Assembly (NCBI GenBank): GCA_946478865.1
Contig: CAMLDO010000047.1
Coordinates: forward strand, 1-10,922
DNA length: 10,922 bases
Direction of reading: 5' to 3'
DNA from: an uncultured Methylobacillus sp.
GTDB lineage: Bacteria; Pseudomonadota; Gammaproteobacteria; Burkholderiales; Methylophilaceae
Part shown: positions 81 through 10,922 of the stretch, one piece after another
Numbering within the stretch: the stretch's first letter is position 1
Layout of the letters: each line of letters opens with the position of its first letter
Notes under the pieces: model-generated
Told to the model about the DNA's origin: nothing
Seen by the model: only the letters and a program-made list of their open reading frames with translations
The model's database searches: none
Made by a program: the position numbers and the translations under genes

Positions 81-128
81 TAAATCAAAAATAAAAATGT
101 CATGATTCAAAATCAGAAGGAGATAGAT

Positions 129-674
129 ATGCAGAAGAAGCAAATGACTCTTATCGCAGCTTTGGTTTTGTTAGGTTTGAGCGCCTGCGGCAAGAACGGC
201 GGTACGGATAGCGCTCCCGGCGCGAGCGGCGAAGCGGCATCTGATTCAGGCGGCAAGATGATCCAGTTCGTAACCACGCAAGACGGCTCCCCTCTGGAAA
301 TCAAGCCCGAACTGTTCGATACCCCCGCCGCGAAGGAATTCATGACTACGGGCAAGAACCCGTATGTCGGCAAGGAAGAAGAGATTGCCAAGGGGAAAAA
401 GCTGTTCCAGCTATATTCCTGCACCCAATGTCATGGCGGTGATGCACAAGGACAGACCGGACCCAGCCTGCATGGACCGGATTTCAAATACGCCAAGGAC
501 GCCACCAACAAGGGTATGTTTGAAACGATCTGGCACGGCACGAATGGCGGCATGGGCGCAAAAGGCAAGGGTCTGATGGATCCGACCGATCCAAGCAATG
601 GTTTGTCGCCAGACGAAGCCTTGAAGATTATCGCCTGGGTGCGTTCGCACGGCACAACAACAGGCAACGAATAA
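129..674 (+). CDS. Lipoprotein monoheme c-type cytochrome, cytochrome cL (MxaG/XoxG)-like
   Basis: The product is a 181-residue exported electron-transfer cytochrome. The ATG at 129 is chosen over an in-frame ATG at 102 because AAGGAGAT (117-124) sits just upstream and the protein then begins with a classic lipoprotein signal: KK, a hydrophobic core, and lipobox L-S-A-C with the lipidated Cys20. A Gly/Ser/Ala-rich linker to about residue 50 follows. The heme site is C98-T-Q-C101-H102. M142, in a Gly-Gly-Met-Gly stretch, is the likely sixth ligand; M150 is an alternative. The segments around TGKNPYVG, the GP after the heme, GMFETI and the C-terminal IAWVRSHG resemble cytochrome cL, the acceptor for PQQ methanol dehydrogenases (family knowledge, recalled rather than searched). 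A dehydrogenase partner is inferred and none is present. The ndh gene begins 25 bp downstream, so the two are probably co-transcribed. Heme c attachment is near certain; the cL assignment is less so. Confidence 0.88.
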   Translation: MQKKQMTLIAALVLLGLSACGKNGGTDSAPGASGEAASDSGGKMIQFVTTQDGSPLEIKPELFDTPAAKEFMTTGKNPYVGKEEEIAKGKKLFQLYSCTQCHGGDAQGQTGPSLHGPDFKYAKDATNKGMFETIWHGTNGGMGAKGKGLMDPTDPSNGLSPDEALKIIAWVRSHGTTTGNE

Positions 675-2095: not shown

Positions 2096-3277
2096 TTAAT
2101 GATGAGTGGAATGCAGCGGTCGCTGCTTGAGATGGATGTGATAGATGATGCTCATCGTGAGGCTGACGAAGGCACCGAAAATGATGACGATGGGCATGAT
2201 GGACATTTCGGCCTTAACCATCATCGTATAGGCACCGATCATCACAAGGATGCCGAGGTTTTCGTTGAAATTCTGTACGGCAATCGAATGGCCGGCCCCG
2301 ATGAGAATATGGCCGCGATGCTGCAACAGCGCGTTAAGAGGGACGACGAAGTAACCCGCCAGTACACCGATCAGGAAAAGCATCACCGCCGCCACATGCC
2401 ATTCGGTGATCAATACCATGCCGGCAACTAGAAAGCCCATCAGGATGCCGGCAGGAAGCACCTTCACGGATTCCTGAAGCTTGACGTATTTGGCGGCGAA
2501 AATGGATCCGAAGGCGATGCCGAATGCGACCATGGCAGTGAGCTGCGTAGACTTGTCCAAGCCGAAATTGAGCGCTGCAGCAGCCCAGGCTATCACGACC
2601 AACCGCATGGTTGCGCCAGCACCCCAGAACAAGGTCGTGACCGCGAGGGCTACCCGGCCTTGCGGGTCGCGCCAGAGTGCGACGAAGGCGTGCCAGAAAT
2701 CATGCAGAAGATAGAAGAGTGTCTTCTTCGGAATGGTGTGGTCAATCGGGACATGCGGGATGTAGAAGTTGAATCCGGCAGCCGCGAGATACAGAGCCGT
2801 GATGATAATCATGGCCAGGTGAGGGTCGGAAGAGGCTATGTGGCCGCCGATGACTGCGCCGAGAATGATGGCTGCAACAGTGGTCCCTTCCATCCAGCCA
2901 TTCGCCTTGACCAGTTGTTCGGGCGGAAGATATTCGGTCAGGATGCCGTATTTGGCGGGCGAATAGGAGGCCGCCCCGATACCGACGATCGCATAGGAAT
3001 AAAGAGGCGGCATGCCGAGCATCATCGCGAGCGAACCGATGAACTTGATCGCGTTGGAGATGAACATCACGCGCCCCTTCGGTAGAGAGTCGGCGAATGA
3101 GCCGACAAACGGGGCGAGTATGATGTATGCAACGACGAAAACGCCTTGCAGGACTGGCGTATGCCAGTCCGGCGCGCTCATTTCGACCAGCAATGCGATG
3201 GCGGCGAATAGCAGCGCATTGTCCGCGAGTGCGGACAAGAACTGCGCCGCCAGTATGATGTAGAAACCTAGATTCAT
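2096..3277 (-). CDS. lplT: Lysophospholipid transporter LplT (MFS)
   Basis: This 393-residue integral inner-membrane protein of the major facilitator superfamily is related to E. coli LplT, which flips lysophospholipids inward for re-acylation. Recognisable family segments, recalled from E. coli LplT, are AQFLSA.xDNALLFA in the first transmembrane helix, the AYSPAKYGIL stretch near residue 110, LFWGAGAT near the middle, and FVVPLNALLQ.RG and AVQNxxEN in the C-terminal half. Length matches the family (about 390-400) and hydrophobicity fits about 12 helices. The ATG at 3277 begins directly before helix 1, and no clear Shine-Dalgarno is visible ahead of it. The gene starts 42 bp after the phoH-like stop, so it is probably the last gene of a bcp-phoH-lplT transcript. 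The partner acyltransferase Aas is not in the window. Confidence 0.94.
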   Translation of the reverse strand: MNLGFYIILAAQFLSALADNALLFAAIALLVEMSAPDWHTPVLQGVFVVAYIILAPFVGSFADSLPKGRVMFISNAIKFIGSLAMMLGMPPLYSYAIVGIGAASYSPAKYGILTEYLPPEQLVKANGWMEGTTVAAIILGAVIGGHIASSDPHLAMIIITALYLAAAGFNFYIPHVPIDHTIPKKTLFYLLHDFWHAFVALWRDPQGRVALAVTTLFWGAGATMRLVVIAWAAAALNFGLDKSTQLTAMVAFGIAFGSIFAAKYVKLQESVKVLPAGILMGFLVAGMVLITEWHVAAVMLFLIGVLAGYFVVPLNALLQHRGHILIGAGHSIAVQNFNENLGILVMIGAYTMMVKAEMSIMPIVIIFGAFVSLTMSIIYHIHLKQRPLHSTHH

Positions 3278-3319: not shown

Positions 3320-4717
3320 CTAGAGAATTTCGGCGGCGAAATCGGCCAGCCGTGAGCGTTCGCCGCGCATCAGGGTGACATGGCCGTTGTGTTGCCATCC
3401 CTTGAAGCGGTCGACGACATAGGTCAGGCCGGAACTTCCTTCCGTTAGATAAGGCGTATCGATCTGGGCGATATTGCCCAGGCAGACGACCTTGGTGCCG
3501 GGGCCCGCACGCGTAATCAGCGTTTTCATCTGCTTCGGCGTCAGGTTCTGGGCTTCGTCGATGATCAGAAACTTGTGCAGGAATGTGCGGCCGCGCATGA
3601 AGTTGAGCGACTTGATCTTGATGCGCGTGCGGATCAGATCCTGCGTCGCGGCGCGGCCCCAGTCGCCGGCCTCGTCATCCGTCTTGTTGAGCACGTCGAG
3701 GTTGTCCTCCAGCGCACCCATCCATGGCGCCATCTTTTCCTCCTCGGTGCCGGGCAGAAAGCCGATATCTTCCCCTACGGGAACCGTGACGCGCGTCATG
3801 ATGATCTCGCTGTAAATCTTTTTATCCAGCGTCTGGGTCAGCGCCGAAGCGAGCGTGAGCAGAGTTTTCCCGGTGCCGGCCTGGCCGAGCAGTGTGATGA
3901 AATCGACGTCCGGATCCATTAGAAGATTCAAGGCAAAATTCTGCTCGCGATTGCGCGCGGTGATGCCCCAGATGCTGTTTTTCTGCTGCGTATAGTCCTT
4001 GACCACTTCGAGCACGGCAGACTTGCCTTCCTGCTGGCGCACGATCGCATGGAATGGCTTTTCGTATTCGTAATACACGAATTCGTTGACGATGAAGCTG
4101 GAGCACATGGGGCCGGTAATGCGATAGAACATGCGCCCGGATTCCTGCCACGATTCCATGGCCTTGCTGTGCTTTTCCCAGAAGTCTTCCGGCAGTTCTT
4201 TCATGCCGGAATAGAGCAGTTCCGTATCTTCCAGCACCTTGTCGTTGAAGTAGTCCTCGGCCGCGATCCCCATGGCGCGCGCCTTGATACGGATGTTGAT
4301 GTCCTTGCTGACGAGGATGACCTGGCGTTCCGGATACTGTTTCTGCAAGTAAACGACGACGCCCAGAATCTGGTTGTCGGCCTTGCTGCCAGCCAGCATA
4401 GGCAGGTCGACGCTGACGGCCTGGGTCTGCAGGAACAGGCGGCCAGTGCTGAAGTTATTGTTGTTGACTGTCAAGGGACAGCCGTCTTCCAGGTTGGCGA
4501 GATCGCCAGAAACGATTTCCTCCAGATTCCGGCTGGCCTGGCGGGCGTTGCGGGCGACTTCCGTCAGGCCCTTTTTGTTGTTGTCGAGTTCTTCCAGCGT
4601 CACCATCGGCAGGTAGACGTCGTGTTCCTCGAAGCGGAACAGGCTGGAAGGGTCGTGCATCAGGACATTGGTATCGAGTACGAACAGCTTGGTAGGAGCG
4701 CCGCGTTTTTTTGCCAT
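3320..4717 (-). CDS. phoH: PhoH family protein with N-terminal PIN domain (PhoH2-type ATPase/ribonuclease)
   Basis: This 465-residue cytoplasmic two-domain protein starts with a PIN nuclease domain (about residues 10-150). The first acidic residue is D15 in LFVLDTNVLMHDP, and further conserved acids include the E-E-L-D segment. A PhoH P-loop ATPase domain fills the C-terminal half: Walker A GQAGTGKT at about 278-285 with K284, and Walker B LIIDEAQN with D387 and E388. Characterised PIN-PhoH proteins (mycobacterial PhoH2) act as ATP-dependent RNA helicase/RNase; the same role here is inferred from domain order. The start at 4717 is preferred over an upstream in-frame ATG at 4795: AGGAAAG lies at a fair distance, the family begins at this point, and the longer version would run 64 bp into bcp. 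The gene follows bcp by 14 bp, and its SD overlaps the bcp stop. Confidence 0.92.
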   Translation of the reverse strand: MAKKRGAPTKLFVLDTNVLMHDPSSLFRFEEHDVYLPMVTLEELDNNKKGLTEVARNARQASRNLEEIVSGDLANLEDGCPLTVNNNNFSTGRLFLQTQAVSVDLPMLAGSKADNQILGVVVYLQKQYPERQVILVSKDINIRIKARAMGIAAEDYFNDKVLEDTELLYSGMKELPEDFWEKHSKAMESWQESGRMFYRITGPMCSSFIVNEFVYYEYEKPFHAIVRQQEGKSAVLEVVKDYTQQKNSIWGITARNREQNFALNLLMDPDVDFITLLGQAGTGKTLLTLASALTQTLDKKIYSEIIMTRVTVPVGEDIGFLPGTEEEKMAPWMGALEDNLDVLNKTDDEAGDWGRAATQDLIRTRIKIKSLNFMRGRTFLHKFLIIDEAQNLTPKQMKTLITRAGPGTKVVCLGNIAQIDTPYLTEGSSGLTYVVDRFKGWQHNGHVTLMRGERSRLADFAAEIL

Positions 4718-4731
4718 GCCGTTAAGCTTTC

Positions 4732-5187
4732 CTAGAGGGTTTTGATGAAATCGAGCACCGCCTGGGCATGATTGGGAACCTTCACGCCTCGCCATTCCTG
4801 CTGCAGCACGCCTTTTTCGTCGATGACGAACGTGCTGCGTTCGATCCCGCGTACCTGTTTGCCATACATGTTTTTCATTTTCATGACGCCGAACAGGGAA
4901 CAGGCGACTTCGTCGGGATCGGAAAGCAGGTCAAATCGGAAATTCTGCTTGCACTTGAAGTTTTCGTGCGATTTCAGGCTGTCGCGCGAGATTCCGAAAA
5001 TCTCGGTGTTGGCCTGCTGAAATTGCTCATACAGCGCGGTGAAATCCAGGCCTTCGGTTGTGCAGCCCGGAGTGGAATCCTTGGGGTAAAAGTAGAGGAC
5101 CAGTTTTTTGCCGGCGTATTGAGAAAGCTTGAATGGGCGATTGCCGGTCGCCGGCAATTCAAAATCAGGTATGGCTTGATTCAACAT
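4732..5187 (-). CDS. bcp: Thiol peroxidase Bcp/PrxQ (peroxiredoxin)
   Basis: This 151-residue cytoplasmic peroxiredoxin reduces H2O2 and organic hydroperoxides with thiol donors such as thioredoxin. The active-site segment YFYPKDSTPGCT places the peroxidatic cysteine at C42 with T39 and P40 in the usual TxxC arrangement. The downstream GIERSTFVID and WRGVKVPNHA segments are typical of the Bcp/PrxQ subfamily, and length fits it. The resolving cysteine found five residues later in E. coli Bcp is absent. Instead C79 sits 37 residues after C42, the spacing of PrxQ enzymes that resolve from the alpha3 helix. A third cysteine is C96. The gene is first of the leftward bcp-phoH-lplT run and divergent from thpR across 67 bp. 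No strong Shine-Dalgarno is visible before the ATG. Confidence 0.94.
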   Translation of the reverse strand: MLNQAIPDFELPATGNRPFKLSQYAGKKLVLYFYPKDSTPGCTTEGLDFTALYEQFQQANTEIFGISRDSLKSHENFKCKQNFRFDLLSDPDEVACSLFGVMKMKNMYGKQVRGIERSTFVIDEKGVLQQEWRGVKVPNHAQAVLDFIKTL

Positions 5188-5254: not shown

Positions 5255-5803
5255 ATGAATATTCATCAGACGAATGAAGACAGGCAAAAAGCCCGGCTGT
5301 TTTTTGCGCTATGGCCGTCCCCTGCGATACGAGATCAACTGCATGCGGAAGCGCTCGCATGCAGTACTCAGCACGGAGGGCGCGTGATGCAAAAAGCGAC
5401 TTTGCACATGACGCTGCTGTTTCTTGGCGATGTTCCTCGAAGCGATATCCCGGAACTGGTTCGACAGGTTGATCGAGTGCAGTGCGCGCCTTTTTCCTTC
5501 CACTTGGAAGCCTTGAAATGCTGGCGGCATAATCGCATCGCCTACATGTCGCCCAAAGGCCGTGTGACCGAACTTCATCAGTTGGCCGGACAATTGCGTG
5601 AGGCAGCAGCGGCCGCACAAGTCTCTTTCGACGGACGAGCTTTTACCCCGCACGTCACGCTGCTTCGGAAACTCGAAAAGTCTTTCGATGCGATAAGCGT
5701 TGAACTGCCGGAATGGCGTGTGTCTGGATTTTCATTGATAGAGTCGATGTTGCAGGCAGAGGGAGCGCGTTACCAGGACTTACATTCCTGGCGTTGTGGG
5801 TGA
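5255..5803 (+). CDS. thpR: RNA 2',3'-cyclic phosphodiesterase (2H/LigT family)
   Basis: This 182-residue cytoplasmic enzyme of the 2H phosphoesterase family hydrolyses 2',3'-cyclic phosphate RNA ends; the E. coli relative was first described as a 2'-5' RNA ligase. Both catalytic HxTx motifs are present, H51-M-T-L and H133-V-T-L, about 80 residues apart as expected. The family's opening RLFFALWP follows a short leader of about 13 residues. GGGGAGG at 5236-5242 is a strong Shine-Dalgarno, but at 12 nt it is farther from the ATG than usual; no better start lies between. The gene is divergent from bcp. Its last 24 bp overlap the convergent histidine kinase gene, and no terminator hairpin is seen between them. 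Confidence 0.92.
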   Translation: MNIHQTNEDRQKARLFFALWPSPAIRDQLHAEALACSTQHGGRVMQKATLHMTLLFLGDVPRSDIPELVRQVDRVQCAPFSFHLEALKCWRHNRIAYMSPKGRVTELHQLAGQLREAAAAAQVSFDGRAFTPHVTLLRKLEKSFDAISVELPEWRVSGFSLIESMLQAEGARYQDLHSWRCG

Positions 5804-7264
5804 CTCGATGACGTTCATCGCGCGCGGCATCTCGACAACGACCAGGGTGCCTCCGCCTTCGCGCGACTGAAAGGCGAGATGTCCTCCCAGCGCCTCGCAT
5901 GCCTTGAAAGCGAAAGGAATCCCCAGACCGGTACCGAACCGCTTGGTGGAAGGGCCAGGACTTTGCGAGCTTGAGTCGGGTTTGAATGGCATACCCGGCC
6001 CGCGATCCCCAATCCTGATTTCCACCCGGTCTTCAAAGAGGCTGCAATTGACGCTGACCTCGGAGCTCACCGGGCTCGCGTCGATGGCATTGATCAGCAG
6101 ATTGTAGAGCGCCTGTTCGAGCAGATGCTCGTCCAGAAAAACCTGATCGTTTCCTTGGCAATCAAGCACGACGGCAATATGCTTTTCCTTGAGTTTCTTT
6201 TGTAGAGGTGCCAGTGCGCCTTGCACAATCCTGGCGAGGCTGCAGCGAGTCGGCTGGGGTTTCAGCGGGTGCAGATAAGCCAGCATCGCGCCCGTCCAGC
6301 GCTCCAGACGATCCACGGCATCGATGATATCGCCCAGCGCTTCTCGCGTTTCCGGATCGAGCTCGGGGGAGTCGGCAACTTGTGCAGTGGCCCGTATGCT
6401 GGCGAGGGGATTGCGGATGTTATGCGCCAGCATCGGGACCAGTGCACCCTGTGCGGCCTGCTTCTCGCTGCGGACCAAGGCTTCCTGGCTACGGGCAAGG
6501 TCACTTGCCATGTGATTGATTGCTTCGCCCAGCGTCGCAAGCTCTGCCGCACCTGCGGTCGGAACGGTGTATTCGAGGCGCCCGGCACGAATTTCTGCCG
6601 TGGCATGCAGGATGTCGGAGATCGGGCGCACGATGGAGCGCTTGAGGAACAGGCGCGAGAACATCAGCAGCACGGCCGCAAGGGCGACGGGAATGAGCAG
6701 CAGGGTGATGGCCAGGCGATTGGCTTCCTCCAGACGGTTTTGAAGCTCGCTTTGCTTTTGGGTCAGCAGATGTTCCGCATGGGCGGAAATCGCTTCGTAG
6801 CGACTGAATACGCCACTCTCAAGGTCGGTGTTCAAAGCCTTGCGTAGCTGATCGCTGGGAATTACGCTGTGCCGATGGAGAATGTCTTGCGTCTCCTGCA
6901 GGAACTCCCGATAACTGTGCTCCAGCCGAAGCACGGCATCCTGTTCTTCCTTTCCGACCGCCATGCTGCGCAACTGGCTGAAATGAAGCTCTACGGCGCG
7001 CGTATATTCATCGTATTCCTGACGTGCCTGCGGATCATCGAGGAAATATGCGTCGAAAAGCTCCTTCATCTGGCGATAAAGGTCGCCTCGCGTTTGCTGG
7101 ATTTCCTGGATCAGGCGATTGATGCGAAGCGATTCATGCGAGGCTTGCTGCCAGAAGTGGATGCCGGTGGCGCCCGCTACGCCGGCCAGCACGATCAGCA
7201 GCACGAAAATCAGCTCATGAGTCAGCAGCAGTTGCCTGAGCGATTTCGGAGAACGCTGCGCCAT
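5780..7264 (-). CDS. Membrane sensor histidine kinase (HAMP-HisKA-HATPase), orphan
   Basis: This 494-residue inner-membrane kinase has a first transmembrane helix at about residues 17-36 and a periplasmic, mostly helical, charged sensor region from about 37 to 185. A second transmembrane helix (about 186-208) is followed by a HAMP linker (about 210-262, with the RPISDI start) and a dimerisation helix carrying phospho-acceptor H281 in LAHNIRNPLASIRA. The ATPase domain shows the N box (NLLINAIDA, N392), the G1 box (IGDRGPGMP) and the G2 box (FGTGLGI). The residue after the histidine is Asn rather than the usual Glu/Asp. No receiver domain and no response regulator gene lie in the window, so its partner and signal are unknown. 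It starts 12 bp after the tonB stop, with only a weak SD, so it is probably translated from the tonB transcript. Confidence 0.92.
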   Translation of the reverse strand: MAQRSPKSLRQLLLTHELIFVLLIVLAGVAGATGIHFWQQASHESLRINRLIQEIQQTRGDLYRQMKELFDAYFLDDPQARQEYDEYTRAVELHFSQLRSMAVGKEEQDAVLRLEHSYREFLQETQDILHRHSVIPSDQLRKALNTDLESGVFSRYEAISAHAEHLLTQKQSELQNRLEEANRLAITLLLIPVALAAVLLMFSRLFLKRSIVRPISDILHATAEIRAGRLEYTVPTAGAAELATLGEAINHMASDLARSQEALVRSEKQAAQGALVPMLAHNIRNPLASIRATAQVADSPELDPETREALGDIIDAVDRLERWTGAMLAYLHPLKPQPTRCSLARIVQGALAPLQKKLKEKHIAVVLDCQGNDQVFLDEHLLEQALYNLLINAIDASPVSSEVSVNCSLFEDRVEIRIGDRGPGMPFKPDSSSQSPGPSTKRFGTGLGIPFAFKACEALGGHLAFQSREGGGTLVVVEMPRAMNVIESPTTPGM

Positions 7265-7276
7265 GAATATGCGCGC

Positions 7277-8041
7277 TTATTCGAGGCGGAACGAAATGGG
7301 GACGCGCACGTTGAAGCTGCGGCCGCGCAACGCTTCAGGAATTGGGGGCGGTTGTAGCATGCGCTTGACCATCTCCTGAGCCTCGGTGTTGAACACCTCG
7401 CGATCGCTGGGTTCCTCGATACGTACCGAAACCACCTTGCCGTTGCTGTCGATCTCGAGCAACAGGGTGACGGTGCCTTCCCATCCGCGCATTTGCGCAA
7501 TGCGGGGGTAGCGCTTGTGTTTGCCGATTTCGCGGCTGAGCGAATTGCCATAGGCTTGACGGGCAGCATCTAGGTCCGCTTCGCTCGGCCCTACTGGCTT
7601 TGGCGGTTCAGGTGGGGGCGGCGGAGCCGTGAATGTGGGGGGCGGCTCTTCTGGCTTGGGAGCGGCCGAGATTACGGGCGGCGGTGGTGCTTCATGACGT
7701 GGCGGCTCAGGCGGTGTCGGTGCTTCCTGCACCTTGGCTGGTGCAGGCTGCTCGACTGGCTTGGGCGGCGGCAATGGCCGTTTGACAGGCTCCGGTTTCG
7801 GCTGAGGTCTGGGCGGCTCTGGCTCCGGTTTGGGCGGTTCGGGTGGCGCAATCTCTTGAGCAGGTTGCGGGGGAGGCTCCTGCTTGACGAGTTCAATCGT
7901 TAACGGCGGTTTGGGCGGCTGTTTTTTGAATTCGATCGGGTGCAGCCACAAGCCCAGCAGCACATGCGCAATGACGGAAATCCCCAGCGCCCAGATCAGG
8001 GTATGTTCTTGAAAGCGGTTGGGGGGATTGGCGCGTGCCAT
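7277..8041 (-). CDS. tonB: TonB family energy-transducing protein
   Basis: This 254-residue protein links inner-membrane proton-motive force to outer-membrane TonB-dependent receptors. One N-terminal transmembrane anchor (about residues 14-34) contains the HVLLG element that includes the conserved His. A long periplasm-spanning Pro-rich linker from about 40 to 155 is built of PP, KP and EP units. The TonB C-terminal domain (about 160-254) is marked by Y178-P and the GWEGTVTL strand, and ends in the V-x-I-S-F-R-L-E strand. The product is near average size for the family. No exbB, exbD or receptor gene is nearby, so ExbBD must come from elsewhere. An extended -10 promoter sits about 45 bp upstream, and a kinase gene follows 12 bp downstream. 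No clear SD was found. Confidence 0.93.
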   Translation of the reverse strand: MARANPPNRFQEHTLIWALGISVIAHVLLGLWLHPIEFKKQPPKPPLTIELVKQEPPPQPAQEIAPPEPPKPEPEPPRPQPKPEPVKRPLPPPKPVEQPAPAKVQEAPTPPEPPRHEAPPPPVISAAPKPEEPPPTFTAPPPPPEPPKPVGPSEADLDAARQAYGNSLSREIGKHKRYPRIAQMRGWEGTVTLLLEIDSNGKVVSVRIEEPSDREVFNTEAQEMVKRMLQPPPIPEALRGRSFNVRVPISFRLE

Positions 8042-8084
8042 GAAATGGATGGAACTTTACTGTCTGTTATGAGGAAAACGCCGC

Positions 8085-8093
8085 ATTATAGCA
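8085..8093 (-). promoter_or_regulatory. Extended -10 promoter upstream of tonB
   Basis: Read on the minus strand this is TGC followed by a perfect TATAAT, that is, a TGn extended -10 element. It is placed so transcription would begin near 8078, about 37 nt before the tonB ATG. No good -35 hexamer is seen, which extended -10 promoters tolerate. It suggests that tonB and the kinase have their own promoter rather than relying on read-through from the hydrolase gene 118 bp upstream. Confidence 0.6.
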
Positions 8094-8159
8094 GCAAGAA
8101 ATTGGCCGTTTTTTCCTTGGTCTGGGCTGCGTGCAAGGAGAGAAGATCAGGCTGAATCA

Positions 8160-9071
8160 TCACTCCCATTCAAGTTTCGGATAGAGCAGATTGACGTTGC
8201 GCCGGTTGACGGCGTCAAACAACTCCCAGTGATCGCGTTCGGCCCCGGCGGCCGTCTCCATGGCCTGCTCCATGCTCTCGCCATGCTGGATACTGGCGCG
8301 GATGTCGGCGAGCAAGGTTTCCAGATAGCGTTGCTCATTATTCAGCGCAAGATTCCAGTCGGAAACGACGGGCCCATGGCCGGGAATGGCGCGCAGTGCG
8401 GAAACGGTACGTAGTTTCTCGATCGCGGCGAGCCAACCATTGATATCGCCATCGAGCGAGGGTGTGCGCTCGACGAAAAGCAGGTCGCCGGTCCACAGTG
8501 TCGCGGATGAGTGATCGAGCACGGTAAGGTCGGTATTGGTGTGCGCTGTGGGGAAGGCGGTCAGCAGCAAGGTGCGCTCGCCGAGGTCGAGTTCCATCGT
8601 GTTCGCGACGCTTTGGGTGGGCTTCACGATCTCGCTGCCCTTGGCAGCCTCTCCCAGCCACGTCGCATTGTTGCGCAGGTAGGCGTCTGCGCGCATTTCC
8701 ATGGCGCTCGCCAGATTGGCATGCCCGACGAATACCGGTTTGTCCTGAATAAAAGCCGCATTGCCGAAGATGTGGTCCGGATGCACATGCGTGTTGATGA
8801 CGTAGAGTATGGGCAACTCGGTTACCTTGCGCACCGATTCGCGTAATCGTTGTCCAATCGCCAGGCTGCCGCCGGTATCGATGATCGCGACCCCGGTTTT
8901 GCCTACCACGAAGCCGATATTGGAGATATCGCCGTGATAGCCCTGATCGAGATCTTCGTGCGCTCCGTGATGAACATACACGCCAGGCGCGGTTTCTTCC
9001 ATGGGGAGCGGTTCGGCGAGAAGTGCGGGGGAAGCCAGCAAGGCCAGCAGCAGCATTAAAACCTTATGCAT
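8160..9071 (-). CDS. Quinoprotein relay system zinc metallohydrolase (SoxH-like MBL fold), periplasmic
   Basis: This 303-residue secreted hydrolase of the metallo-beta-lactamase fold has a Sec signal peptide of about 20 residues, cut before EPLPME. A full binuclear metal site is visible: H95-V-H97-P-D99-H100, then H177 in TAHTNTDL, D196 in TGDLLF and H232 in PGHGP. The GDISNIGF.VG and LPILYVINTH segments and the C-terminal ending LEWE fit the 'quinoprotein relay system zinc metallohydrolase' family (SoxH-related), as recalled. Genes of this group co-occur with PQQ dehydrogenases and a SoxYZ-like carrier, and such a carrier lies 0.85 kb away. The substrate is unknown; thioester or other carrier-bound acyl hydrolysis, as in glyoxalase II relatives, is inference. 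AAGG about 10 nt upstream supports the start. The gene is divergent from cytochrome b561. A generic periplasmic MBL hydrolase is the alternative. Confidence 0.88.
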   Translation of the reverse strand: MHKVLMLLLALLASPALLAEPLPMEETAPGVYVHHGAHEDLDQGYHGDISNIGFVVGKTGVAIIDTGGSLAIGQRLRESVRKVTELPILYVINTHVHPDHIFGNAAFIQDKPVFVGHANLASAMEMRADAYLRNNATWLGEAAKGSEIVKPTQSVANTMELDLGERTLLLTAFPTAHTNTDLTVLDHSSATLWTGDLLFVERTPSLDGDINGWLAAIEKLRTVSALRAIPGHGPVVSDWNLALNNEQRYLETLLADIRASIQHGESMEQAMETAAGAERDHWELFDAVNRRNVNLLYPKLEWE

Positions 9072-9122
9072 GAATTCTTAACCTTATTGATATGAAACGA
9101 AAGTCTTGGTGCTTGCAGGGCT

Positions 9123-9131
9123 ATTATGCCA
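9123..9131 (-). promoter_or_regulatory. Candidate extended -10 promoter of the relay hydrolase gene
   Basis: On the minus strand this reads TGG then CATAAT, five of six matches to the -10 consensus with a TGn extension, about 52 bp before the hydrolase ATG. No clear -35 is present. It is supported by position in the divergent intergenic region and by similarity to the TGn promoters before tonB and the SoxYZ-like gene. Confidence 0.4.
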
Positions 9132-9214
9132 TTTCCGGTTGGACTGTCGCCTTTGTACGGCGGTTCGTCTCCGATCGATGTCGATGCTTGTCAAAAAAGT
9201 GTATATTTCCGCTG

Positions 9215-9230
9215 GGATCGGCACCGATCC
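9215..9230. promoter_or_regulatory. Perfect palindrome (possible operator) in the divergent hydrolase/cytochrome b561 region
   Basis: GGATCGG (9215-9221) and CCGATCC (9224-9230) form a perfect 7-bp inverted repeat with a 2-bp centre, 32 bp upstream of the cytochrome b561 ATG. There is no T tract, so it is not a terminator. CCGATC also occurs at 9171-9176, 53 bp before the right arm, which is close to five helical turns. A regulator-binding site is the simplest reading, and a hairpin in the 5' leader is the alternative. The 190-bp gap (9072-9261) holds no gene. Confidence 0.4.
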
Positions 9231-9261
9231 TTGCAATCTTCAAATAACGACAGGTTGAAAC

Positions 9262-9864
9262 ATGAACAATACCGTACAACGTTACACGAAAACCGCGATT
9301 GTCCTGCACTGGCTGATCGGCTTGCTGATTATCGCGCTGCTTGCCTTGGGGTTATGGATGCACGAATTGCCCAAGGATGCTCCCAAAACGGCAGCCTTCG
9401 ATCTTTTTAACTGGGGACTTTATACCGTGACGATGCCGGAGCCGGTTTCGGTACGCACCTTTTATTTCAATCTGCACAAATCCATCGGTATCACGGTGAT
9501 GGTGCTGGTCCTGCTGCGGATTTTCTGGCGCTTGACCCACGTCGCTCCAGCCTTCCCCGACACCATGAAGGGATGGGAAAAGAAGCTGGCCGATCTGGGG
9601 CACAAGGCGCTCTACGTCATGATGGTGGTCCTGCCCCTGAGCGGTTTCATCATGTCCATCTACAGCAAGTGGGGCATCCTCTGGTTTGGCATGCCACTGG
9701 TTAAAGGGCTGGACAACCCACAACTGCGCGACTTCTTTGTGGAAGTGCATGAAATTTCAGCCTGGATCATCATCGTGCTGATTGTTGTACACGTTGTTGC
9801 GGCACTCAAGCACAAGGTGGTCGACAAGGACGATGTCATGAAGCGCATGTCGCTGCACGGATAA
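9262..9864 (+). CDS. Cytochrome b561 family diheme membrane protein
   Basis: This 200-residue inner-membrane protein has about four transmembrane helices (roughly residues 12-33, 70-90, 112-132 and 163-183), longer than E. coli CybB because of a periplasmic-side loop at about 36-66. Histidines expected to bind two b hemes are H16 (LHW), H72 (LHKSIG), H163 (VHEIS) and H177 (VHVV); H114 in GHKALY is also conserved in such proteins. Family members pass electrons between quinone and periplasmic partners such as superoxide or YceI-associated systems. Here the flanking quinoprotein-relay genes suggest a role in a periplasmic oxidation chain (inference). CAGG about 7 nt before the ATG is a modest SD. 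The gene has its own terminator and stands alone between a divergent and a convergent neighbour. Confidence 0.92.
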   Translation: MNNTVQRYTKTAIVLHWLIGLLIIALLALGLWMHELPKDAPKTAAFDLFNWGLYTVTMPEPVSVRTFYFNLHKSIGITVMVLVLLRIFWRLTHVAPAFPDTMKGWEKKLADLGHKALYVMMVVLPLSGFIMSIYSKWGILWFGMPLVKGLDNPQLRDFFVEVHEISAWIIIVLIVVHVVAALKHKVVDKDDVMKRMSLHG

Positions 9865-9876
9865 CATGCCGGAAAC

Positions 9877-9905
9877 AAAAGGGCGCCTCGGCGCCCTTTT
9901 TTATT
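9877..9905. terminator. Bidirectional Rho-independent terminator between cytochrome b561 and the SoxYZ-like gene
   Basis: AAAAGGGCGC (9877-9886) pairs with GCGCCCTTTT (9891-9900) around a CTCG loop, with more Ts to about 9902 on the right and A-rich sequence (ggaaacaaaa) on the left. Both strands therefore carry a U tract after the hairpin. It sits 12 bp after the cytochrome b561 stop and just beyond the convergent SoxYZ-like stop at 9917, serving both genes. Confidence 0.9.
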
Positions 9906-9916
9906 TGTCTGCCGTT

Positions 9917-10720
9917 TCAGCCTTTTACTTCGGCGGTCTGGCTGAACGACTTGCCCTCGTTGTCATCCGCCTTTACCTCCAGCGTGCCGGGACCATCGGG
10001 CAGGTAGGTGAAACGCAGATAGGGGTCCTCGGAAACGCCGACGGCGAAATCCGCTTGCATGACCGGCTTGTTGTTATGCGTAAACGCAACCTTCTGGATG
10101 AAGAACGCCGGTTTGTAGCCGCCGGAAACCAGATCGCGTTGCAAGCCTGTGAACATCGGGTGCTTGATGTGGAAGGACGCGACGGCAGGTTCGCCGGCTT
10201 GGGGAGCGGGCTCGACATTCATCTTGATCTTGCCGGCTGCGGCGCGAATGGCTGTATCGTCGCCGTCCACCAATCCGCCGCAACCGCCAGCGGCGCGGAT
10301 GACAATATCCGTCACGAACAGGCGGCCGTCCTCGGTTTCACCGACGGCATGAATGAAGGAGTCGGTTTCCATGCGGATGCGGGTTGAAAGTCTGGGTTTG
10401 CCGCTCAGATCGGTGAAGTGATAGATCGCTGCCAGCGGAATCGGATTGGCATCCACGATCACATAGACCTTCTTGATGGCATCCTGCTCGCCCAGCTTTT
10501 TATCGATCGTGAGCGTGATAGGAACTTGTGCTCCGCTTTCAGCGCGACGCGGACCTTCCAGTTTGATGAAGGTGGCGGGCTCGATGGTTTTGCCTGCGAA
10601 AAAACTTTCCTTCAGCGTGGGCCAGAGCTTGTCGGAGGCCTCAGCCCATGCATTCGCGCTATAGGCGAGGCAGAGGCCGAGAAGCGAGATGATGGACGTG
10701 TAACCCCGTACCGTGCGCAT
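9917..10720 (-). CDS. Quinoprotein dehydrogenase-associated SoxYZ-like carrier
   Basis: This 267-residue periplasmic protein resembles a SoxY-SoxZ fusion. A Sec signal peptide (about residues 1-26, ending A-N-A-W-A) is followed by a SoxY-like beta domain (about 45-140). A G-G-C147-G-G arm at 145-149 comes next, then a SoxZ-like domain (about 165-267) with the FIQKVAFTHNNKPV and DPYLRFTY stretches. In true SoxY the GGCGG cysteine at the C-terminus carries sulfur intermediates. This fused family is instead linked with PQQ dehydrogenases and the SoxH-like hydrolase (family knowledge, recalled), and the cargo is not known. A good SD, AGGAGAAGGA, precedes the ATG. Upstream, 77 bp away, an unrecognised same-strand gene ends. 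No soxA, soxX, soxB or soxCD gene is in view, which argues against ordinary thiosulfate oxidation. Confidence 0.88.
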   Translation of the reverse strand: MRTVRGYTSIISLLGLCLAYSANAWAEASDKLWPTLKESFFAGKTIEPATFIKLEGPRRAESGAQVPITLTIDKKLGEQDAIKKVYVIVDANPIPLAAIYHFTDLSGKPRLSTRIRMETDSFIHAVGETEDGRLFVTDIVIRAAGGCGGLVDGDDTAIRAAAGKIKMNVEPAPQAGEPAVASFHIKHPMFTGLQRDLVSGGYKPAFFIQKVAFTHNNKPVMQADFAVGVSEDPYLRFTYLPDGPGTLEVKADDNEGKSFSQTAEVKG

Positions 10721-10751
10721 GATGTTCCTTCTCCTGAAGTTTATTCGCTCT

Positions 10752-10760
10752 ATATTAGCA
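10752..10760 (-). promoter_or_regulatory. Candidate extended -10 promoter of the SoxYZ-like gene
   Basis: On the minus strand TGC precedes TAATAT, a TGn-extended -10-like element about 31 bp before the ATG and within the 77-bp gap after the upstream gene. The match to TATAAT is imperfect and no good -35 is seen. Co-transcription with the upstream gene remains possible. Confidence 0.35.
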
Positions 10761-10797
10761 AATTCTCACATACTGGGCACTCGCCGGAAGAGGCAAG

Positions 10798-10922
10798 TCA
10801 CTCCAAAGTCATGAGCGGTTCGAAAGGCCCTTGCATCGCACCCGCTTCCTCCTGCCCCTTGAATGCCCGATCGACGAGATAGAGCGCATTGGCGAGATGA
10901 AGATCCTCGGGCACCTTCTGGC
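10798..10922 (-). CDS. C-terminal end of an unrecognised protein (partial at window edge)
   Basis: A minus-strand frame stays open from the window edge to a TGA at 10798-10800, giving the last 40 residues. They begin QKVPEDLHLANALYLVDRAF and end GPFEPLMTLE. This frame has the expected mix of charged and hydrophobic residues and uses codons like its neighbours. The other two minus frames give Arg/Ser/Cys-rich peptides that look like shadows. I do not recognise the family. The stretch around LANALYLVDRAF could be an amphipathic helix. It lies directly upstream of the SoxYZ-like gene on the same strand, so a link to the quinoprotein relay is possible but not shown. Confidence 0.6.
   Translation of the reverse strand, partial: QKVPEDLHLANALYLVDRAFKGQEEAGAMQGPFEPLMTLE

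Follow-up and report, generated by a model that had tools for sequence, protein, structure and literature searches.

A SoxYZ-like carrier and a zinc hydrolase in an uncultured Methylobacillus as a candidate accessory module of lanthanide-type PQQ alcohol dehydrogenases

Carrier, hydrolase and cytochrome at the locus

We analysed a stretch of 10,922 nucleotides from an uncultured Methylobacillus sp. (contig CAMLDO010000047.1), called here the window, in which a listing of open reading frames (ORFs) together with NCBIfam and Pfam scans gives 11 recognisable genes. We are concerned with three of them at its right end: the gene of a metallo-beta-lactamase-fold hydrolase of 303 residues (8160..9071, minus strand), the divergent gene of a cytochrome b561-type membrane protein of 200 residues (9262..9864, plus strand), and the gene of a fused SoxYZ-like carrier of 267 residues (9917..10720, minus strand). 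The initial annotation of this DNA, which drew the three as a candidate periplasmic relay, had placed the ORFs correctly in both position and strand, and its naming of them as SoxYZ-like carrier, SoxH-like hydrolase and b561 agrees with the family searches, where all lie far above the cut-offs: 241.6 bits against 140 for the carrier (NCBIfam TIGR04557), 412.5 bits against 280 for the hydrolase (TIGR04559, SoxH_rel_PQQ_2, quinoprotein relay system zinc metallohydrolase 2) and 123.6 against a gathering score of 30.1 for the b561 protein (PF01292). By these matches the carrier and the hydrolase are members of already-named families.

The carrier is a single chain in which a SoxY-like domain (residues about 30-147) is followed by a SoxZ-like domain (about 160-267), with the arm G145-G-C147-G-G149 between them (codons at 10274..10288, minus strand). 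In a fold search its model matches both SoxY and SoxZ structures, and the predicted local distance difference test (pLDDT) score of the model is below 50 at residues 147-150. Only two cysteines are present, C147 and C17, the latter within the hydrophobic N-terminal stretch. C147, to which the initial annotation had given the role of acceptor, does exist and is invariant, being kept in 71/71 aligned rows (70 distinct genes) and in 53/53 close homologues; moreover, in 59 of the 71 rows the arm cysteine is the sole cysteine past residue 30. The fused chain falls outside the true SoxY family (TIGR04488, 76.0 bits, cut-off 125) and the true SoxZ family (TIGR04490, 71.0 bits, cut-off 76). Its closest relative among 26 loci is the carrier of Methylobacillus sp. 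MM3, with 84% identity, where all eleven genes stand in the same order.

The hydrolase (model pLDDT 92.5) has no cysteine at all and has a complete two-metal motif of seven residues, H95, H97, D99, H100, H177, D196 and H232, all present and conserved, the ligand roles of which we assume by analogy with the metallo-beta-lactamase superfamily. The segment H95-x-H97-x-D99-H100 (codons at 8772..8789) is kept in 92-98% of 62 aligned rows (56 distinct genes) and is invariant in 56 close homologues, and the other expected metal ligands are H177 (8541..8543, 98% of rows), D196 (8484..8486, 92%, presumably the bridging Asp by analogy) and H232 (8376..8378, 98%), all on the minus strand. With its metal motif complete and with no cysteine of its own, the enzyme is thus expected to cleave the cargo of the carrier. 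Assignment as an antibiotic-type subclass B1 metallo-beta-lactamase (NF033088) fails, with 42.1 against a cut-off of 200, and the glyoxalase II model scores 29.4 against 200.8. Glyoxalase II and PqsE are thioesterases of the metallo-beta-lactamase fold, and PqsE is among the fold matches of the hydrolase. The nearest solved structures are 8d2z (22% identity), whose title names no function, and chlorothalonil dehalogenase 6uxu (23% identity), an enzyme with a different reaction.

The initial annotation also gave each of the three genes its own transcription unit. The alternating strands are consistent with this, as is a terminator-like hairpin at 9877..9900, where the b561 and carrier genes converge; such promoter- or terminator-like sites are no more frequent in 7000-10922 than in shuffled sequence. 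The hydrolase gene, by contrast, is followed on the same strand by the genes of a TonB protein (7277..8041) and a sensor histidine kinase (5780..7264), both named from family scans, and because of this order it may share a transcription unit with them. The kinase gene comes directly after tonB, and the window holds no response regulator.

Co-occurrence of the pair and matched arm types

We surveyed 299 genomes of the same phylum, requested at a completeness of at least 90%, by profile searches for the carrier, both types of the hydrolase, the pyrroloquinoline quinone (PQQ) alcohol dehydrogenase and SoxB; at most 4 or 7 candidates per genome were scored, depending on the search, and absences are accordingly not certain. 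TIGR04557 was over the cut-off in 50 genomes, 11 of which (G036, G060, G071, G087, G091, G099, G103, G115, G119, G127 and G135) were removed, their match being interrupted by a stop codon, which was read as a sign of separate soxY and soxZ genes, leaving the fused carrier in 39/299. At curated cut-offs the type 2 hydrolase occurs in 26 genomes and type 1 in 15, with both in two, and their union is exactly the 39 carrier genomes. The PQQ alcohol dehydrogenase is present in 39/39 carrier genomes, compared with 83/299 overall. If the removed genomes are included the co-occurrence becomes 39/50; all 11 fall outside the 83 genomes with a PQQ dehydrogenase, none is over the type 1 or type 2 cut-off, and 3 have a weaker hydrolase-like match. 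Weaker matches of this kind, under the type cut-offs, occur in 18 carrier-less genomes, 2 of which have a PQQ dehydrogenase. It is noted that 44 genomes have the dehydrogenase and neither the carrier nor a typed hydrolase, and the pair therefore seems to be gained or lost as a unit. The initial annotation had stated that both families accompany PQQ dehydrogenases, and had named a lack of co-occurrence as one outcome that would refute its proposal; the statement proves right, and the survey does not refute the proposal.

The two genes also lie close together. A typed hydrolase is found at most 500 bp away for 37 of the 48 fused carriers, on the same strand in 34, while the other 11 include that of MM3, which b561 separates from its hydrolase, and carriers at other genomic sites. 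Moreover, the arm varies with the type of the hydrolase: it reads GGGC in 15/15 carriers adjoining type 1 and GGC[SA]AP in 22/22 adjoining type 2. The form GGCGG of the window occurs in 28/28 Methylophilaceae rows and in 0/43 others, with a type 2 hydrolase where one is near. Two genomes (G163 and G247) hold both kinds, with every carrier beside its own type of hydrolase, and in these two cases the pairing is therefore separable from species descent. This matching of sequences suggests that the hydrolase recognises the arm of the carrier, and we consider it very likely that the two form one module. Note also that the second carriers of L052 and L053 have an odd arm, SGQGACAAP, and lie about 7 kb from a matched pair.

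The place of the b561 protein is different. Of 26 Methylophilaceae genomes, among which incomplete and fragmented metagenome bins are numerous, all have the hydrolase and 25 have b561 flanking it, in two of these with a TIGR03866-like beta-propeller gene (under the cut-off) in between (L003 1840-2793 and L017 11483-12448). The carrier lies elsewhere in 9 of the 26 (G020 being indeterminate at a contig end), and hydrolase and b561 still stand together in 8 of these 9. Such steadiness would be expected if the three window genes made up one electron-linked relay in which b561 is essential, as the initial annotation drew it. By contrast, among 40 other carrier regions, taken from 38 sampled genomes with MM3 left out, b561 was found in only 2 (L056 and L074), in neither directly beside the hydrolase; and among the Methylophilaceae themselves, G002 has no b561 match in the 5.5 kb that precede the hydrolase gene. 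In these 40 regions the genes were called with a codon-model script and one member per cluster was family-scanned, and the neighbour counts are lower bounds (the b561 of L074 was found only by direct search). A relay with b561 as a general part is thus improbable in our estimation, and what stands of it is a constant neighbour within one family.

In 8 of the 26 Methylophilaceae genomes, those with the carrier elsewhere, a homologue of Fae (formaldehyde-activating enzyme) lies about 1.1 kb from the hydrolase-b561 pair (L034, L035, L037, L178, L179, L180, L182 and L183). The second carrier of MM3 (L028 5125-10029) stands near Fae, N-formylglutamate deformylase and a gamma-lyase-like gene, with Fae about 3.5 kb away and with Fae and the deformylase upstream; no hydrolase was found in the 19 kb region of L028.

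The dehydrogenase and its neighbourhood

The initial annotation had described the system as lacking both a dehydrogenase and Sox enzymes. As a description of the window this is right, there being no dehydrogenase gene within the 10,922 nucleotides; beyond its limits it probably does not hold. At the left edge of the window stands the gene of a c-type cytochrome related to XoxG/MoxG (102..674, plus strand; TIGR03872 96.5 bits, under the cut-off of 147.8), followed by that of an NADH dehydrogenase-like flavoprotein (700-2040). In 6/6 relatives with enough flank (L027, L029, L030, L031, L032 and L033, all with the same gene order, the xoxF of L033 being cut by the contig end) the block opens with xoxF and xoxJ, continues with one or two cytochromes c and the NADH dehydrogenase-like gene, and passes into the order of the window, so that outward of the counterpart of the 102..674 cytochrome come a second cytochrome c (missing from L032), then xoxJ (TIGR03871 286.5, cut-off 212.15) and finally xoxF. 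In MM3 the PQQ alcohol dehydrogenase occupies C40:278690-280366, with the carrier at C40:292132-292815. Judging from the gene order of the relatives, the absence of the dehydrogenase is very probably an effect of the window edge, and since the window starts right upstream of the last cytochrome of the block, the gene is expected within about 4 kb past the left edge. Speaking against this, a dehydrogenase match reaches the cut-off in only 18 of the 26 Methylophilaceae genomes and none is found in G026, many of these genomes being fragmented metagenome bins. As for the Sox enzymes, the MM3 genome has soxB and separate soxY- and soxZ-like genes on other contigs.

The remaining genes of the window are those of LplT (2096-3277, minus strand), a PhoH-PIN protein (3320-4795, minus strand), a peroxiredoxin (4732-5187, minus strand) and an ORF at 5255-5803, which may encode a 2'-5' RNA ligase-like protein. 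A tRNA scan and an Rfam scan of the window gave no matches.

Nearly all carrier genomes have a dehydrogenase of one particular type. If the Asp in DEWDYD is taken, as we assume, to mark lanthanide-type enzymes, the marker is found in 38/39 carrier genomes, compared with 24/44 carrier-less genomes with a PQQ dehydrogenase (Fisher p 5.7e-6, with kinship ignored), where the count includes distant dehydrogenase clades with the same Asp. On the carrier side this comparison covers the dehydrogenases in the 40 regions and 33 chosen others, 13 being read by pattern and not by alignment; on the carrier-less side it covers 58 matches listed for the 44 genomes. The only carrier genome without the motif, among the two dehydrogenases listed for it, is G080. 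On these sequences, the pair accompanies lanthanide-type enzymes, although some of these do without it.

Near the carriers, 22 of the 40 regions hold a PQQ dehydrogenase, 14 a PedC-type ABC permease, 13 XoxJ, 12 a PQQ-linked binding protein, 10 a PQQ-associated beta-propeller and 3 Fae. S-formylglutathione hydrolase is found in 10/40; the figures for formaldehyde genes are raw counts. In at least 11 of the 26 Methylophilaceae loci a PqqU-like TonB-dependent receptor stands beside the carrier, with 564 to 668 bits in three scanned copies, under the cut-off of 1200. The presence of xoxJ and of the PqqU-like receptor would fit a role in maturation or repair, where the pair helps to fold the dehydrogenase, to form its vicinal disulfide or to insert PQQ and the lanthanide, with the carrier cysteine taking part in thiol-disulfide exchange; a 2026 review suggests disulfide formation or cofactor stabilisation (PMC12997753). 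However, nearly every PQQ dehydrogenase examined has the vicinal Cys pair, whether its genome holds a carrier or not (the one exception being L138), so that it does not discriminate carrier from carrier-less genomes and fails as an explanation of the pair; and a cysteine-free hydrolase with a complete metal motif would be an odd partner for disulfide exchange. We regard this role as unlikely.

Three further ORFs recur in the neighbourhood. In 15 Methylophilaceae loci (L010-L016 and L018-L025), which include both genomic arrangements, an ORF of VOC/glyoxalase fold (one copy scanned) stands no more than about 3 kb from the carrier. A protein of about 120 residues (cluster c8), encoded on the strand opposite to the carrier in 12/40 regions (L041, L044, L045, L047, L048, L049, L051, L052, L053, L054, L062 and L063), has an N-terminal hydrophobic stretch and four cysteines (GC...CSCSID...RCF), and its copy from L051 has no NCBIfam or Pfam match at the thresholds used. 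A protein of about 200 residues (cluster c12), present in 8/40 regions (L042, L043, L044, L046, L047, L048, L052 and L054), has an N-terminal hydrophobic stretch and two cysteines, and its copy from L047 likewise has no NCBIfam or Pfam match.

What the carrier may hold on C147

We propose, tentatively, that the pair is a periplasmic two-part accessory module of lanthanide-type PQQ alcohol dehydrogenases. In this model both proteins would be exported, C147 would become loaded with a covalent adduct that arises at the dehydrogenase or close to it, and the hydrolase, presumably with two zinc ions, would take the arm into its active site and cleave the adduct off, the likeliest adduct being derived from an aldehyde. 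In the case of methanol, a hemithioacetal would be oxidised to a formyl thioester on C147 and released as formate, so that the route would be a protein-bound counterpart of glutathione-dependent formaldehyde oxidation. The b561 protein would be an addition particular to the Methylophilaceae, where it perhaps delivers or removes electrons. The parts of the model differ in strength. That the hydrolase acts on an adduct of C147 appears probable by analogy with the Sox system, whereas that the adduct is an acyl group, as the initial annotation also had it, is doubtful. An aldehyde-derived thioester is favoured because in the sample the module always follows alcohol dehydrogenases and formaldehyde genes lie nearby, but its chance has to be put well below even, because the CXXCW neighbour considered next, the SoxYZ origin of the carrier and the enrichment of SoxB fit a sulfur adduct about as well.

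The sulfur adduct is the substance of another possible, though again doubtful, explanation, namely that groups which would otherwise attack PQQ or the active-site disulfide (sulfite, persulfide or groups derived from thiosulfate) are caught on C147, and that the hydrolase releases them. The carrier is by sequence and by fold a fusion of SoxY and SoxZ, and a rhodanese-like CXXCW protein (TIGR03865) lies near 21 of the 40 carriers. Moreover, SoxB is commoner in carrier genomes (19/39) than in carrier-less PQQ genomes (6/44; Fisher p 0.0007) and than in all non-carrier genomes (30/260), an enrichment that suits a sulfur link or a shared way of life. The review also proposes that PQQ is shielded from sulfur nucleophiles and cites the inhibition of methanol growth by thiosulfate (PMC12997753). 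By contrast, SoxB is absent from 20/39 carrier genomes, and the pair therefore does not need it; in the 26 Methylophilaceae genomes the CXXCW protein is over the cut-off in none (there is one weak match), so that it is no obligate partner; and this explanation gives no reason for a special need by lanthanide-type enzymes. The thiosulfate Sox pathway proper was also considered and rejected, with the SoxY and SoxZ cut-offs missed and SoxB, in spite of its enrichment, absent in those 20 genomes.

For the general logic of an accessory module with a loaded arm, the analogy of SoxYZ and SoxB offers a strong precedent. The title of structure 4uwq states that a SoxB-SoxYZ complex has been solved, and according to PMC5336275 SoxYZ conjugates bind SoxB at its metal pair. 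The window pair resembles this system in the SoxY and SoxZ folds, in the single cysteine on a flexible GGCGG arm and in a hydrolase expected to hold two metals; it differs in having one fused chain with an internal arm, under the cut-offs of true SoxY and SoxZ, and in having an unrelated hydrolase of metallo-beta-lactamase fold, SoxB being wanting in about half of the carrier genomes, as given above.

The proposed thiol adduct and its hydrolysis are shared with glutathione-dependent formaldehyde oxidation, where S-formylglutathione hydrolase acts, and with thioesterases of the metallo-beta-lactamase fold. By contrast, these glutathione-type routes and thioesterases use a small-molecule thiol or CoA and are cytoplasmic.

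With regard to known systems of the same families, the review treats a pair of this kind, PP_2677/PP_2678 of the Pseudomonas putida ped cluster, as conserved alongside lanthanide and PQQ-dependent dehydrogenases, and it leaves their role between maturation, redox control and PQQ protection (PMC12997753). These proteins, which we liken by family and description, and the TIGR04557/TIGR04558/TIGR04559 systems agree with the window pair in families over the cut-offs, arm cysteine, metal motif and association with the dehydrogenase. The window pair differs from the TIGR04557-TIGR04559 systems in the arm, which is GGCGG and not GGC[SA]AP or GGGC, in the opposite-strand b561 gene that separates carrier and hydrolase, and in belonging with 26 Methylophilaceae relatives that lack the CXXCW protein over the cut-off. 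A figure legend of a Roseobacter study shows soxH in a xoxF5 cluster with a gene of glutathione-dependent formaldehyde dehydrogenase. In searches of the open-licence PubMed Central literature, no reaction assigned to the carrier or the hydrolase was found (related papers are PMC11582611, PMC7391723, PMC5934484, PMC10875860 and PMC6382920).

Besides the CXXCW neighbour and the enrichment of SoxB, several points weigh against the proposed module and its acyl cargo. The counts of the survey are not independent, because the genomes are related to one another. The 24 of 44 carrier-less genomes that have a lanthanide-type enzyme manage without the pair. A PQQ dehydrogenase match over the cut-off was found in only 18 of the 26 Methylophilaceae genomes, with none in G026. 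The nearest solved structures to the hydrolase include no thioesterase. Finally, transposon insertions in PP_2677/PP_2678, as given in the review, had minimal phenotypes on short-chain alcohols in experiments without rare earths (PMC12997753).

If the acyl reading is nevertheless carried to its full extent, a periplasmic, protein-borne acyl pathway can be drawn, where the carrier cysteine replaces glutathione at the lanthanide dehydrogenases in capturing formaldehyde or other aldehydes and the di-zinc enzyme hydrolyses the thioester, where the two matched types result from co-evolution of arm and enzyme, and where the Methylophilaceae have a third form of the arm, GGCGG, with b561 taking over the redox role of the missing CXXCW protein. 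We regard this extended picture as rather unlikely.

Lanthanide-type alcohol dehydrogenases are widespread, and many of them are accompanied by a SoxYZ-like carrier and a zinc hydrolase. The exact co-occurrence and the matched subtypes turn the pair into one module with one question, namely the identity of the group on C147. A sulfur group would help to explain how these dehydrogenases survive sulfur nucleophiles. An acyl group would mean that SoxYZ-type carriers are used outside sulfur metabolism and that aldehydes have a protein-bound route in the periplasm.

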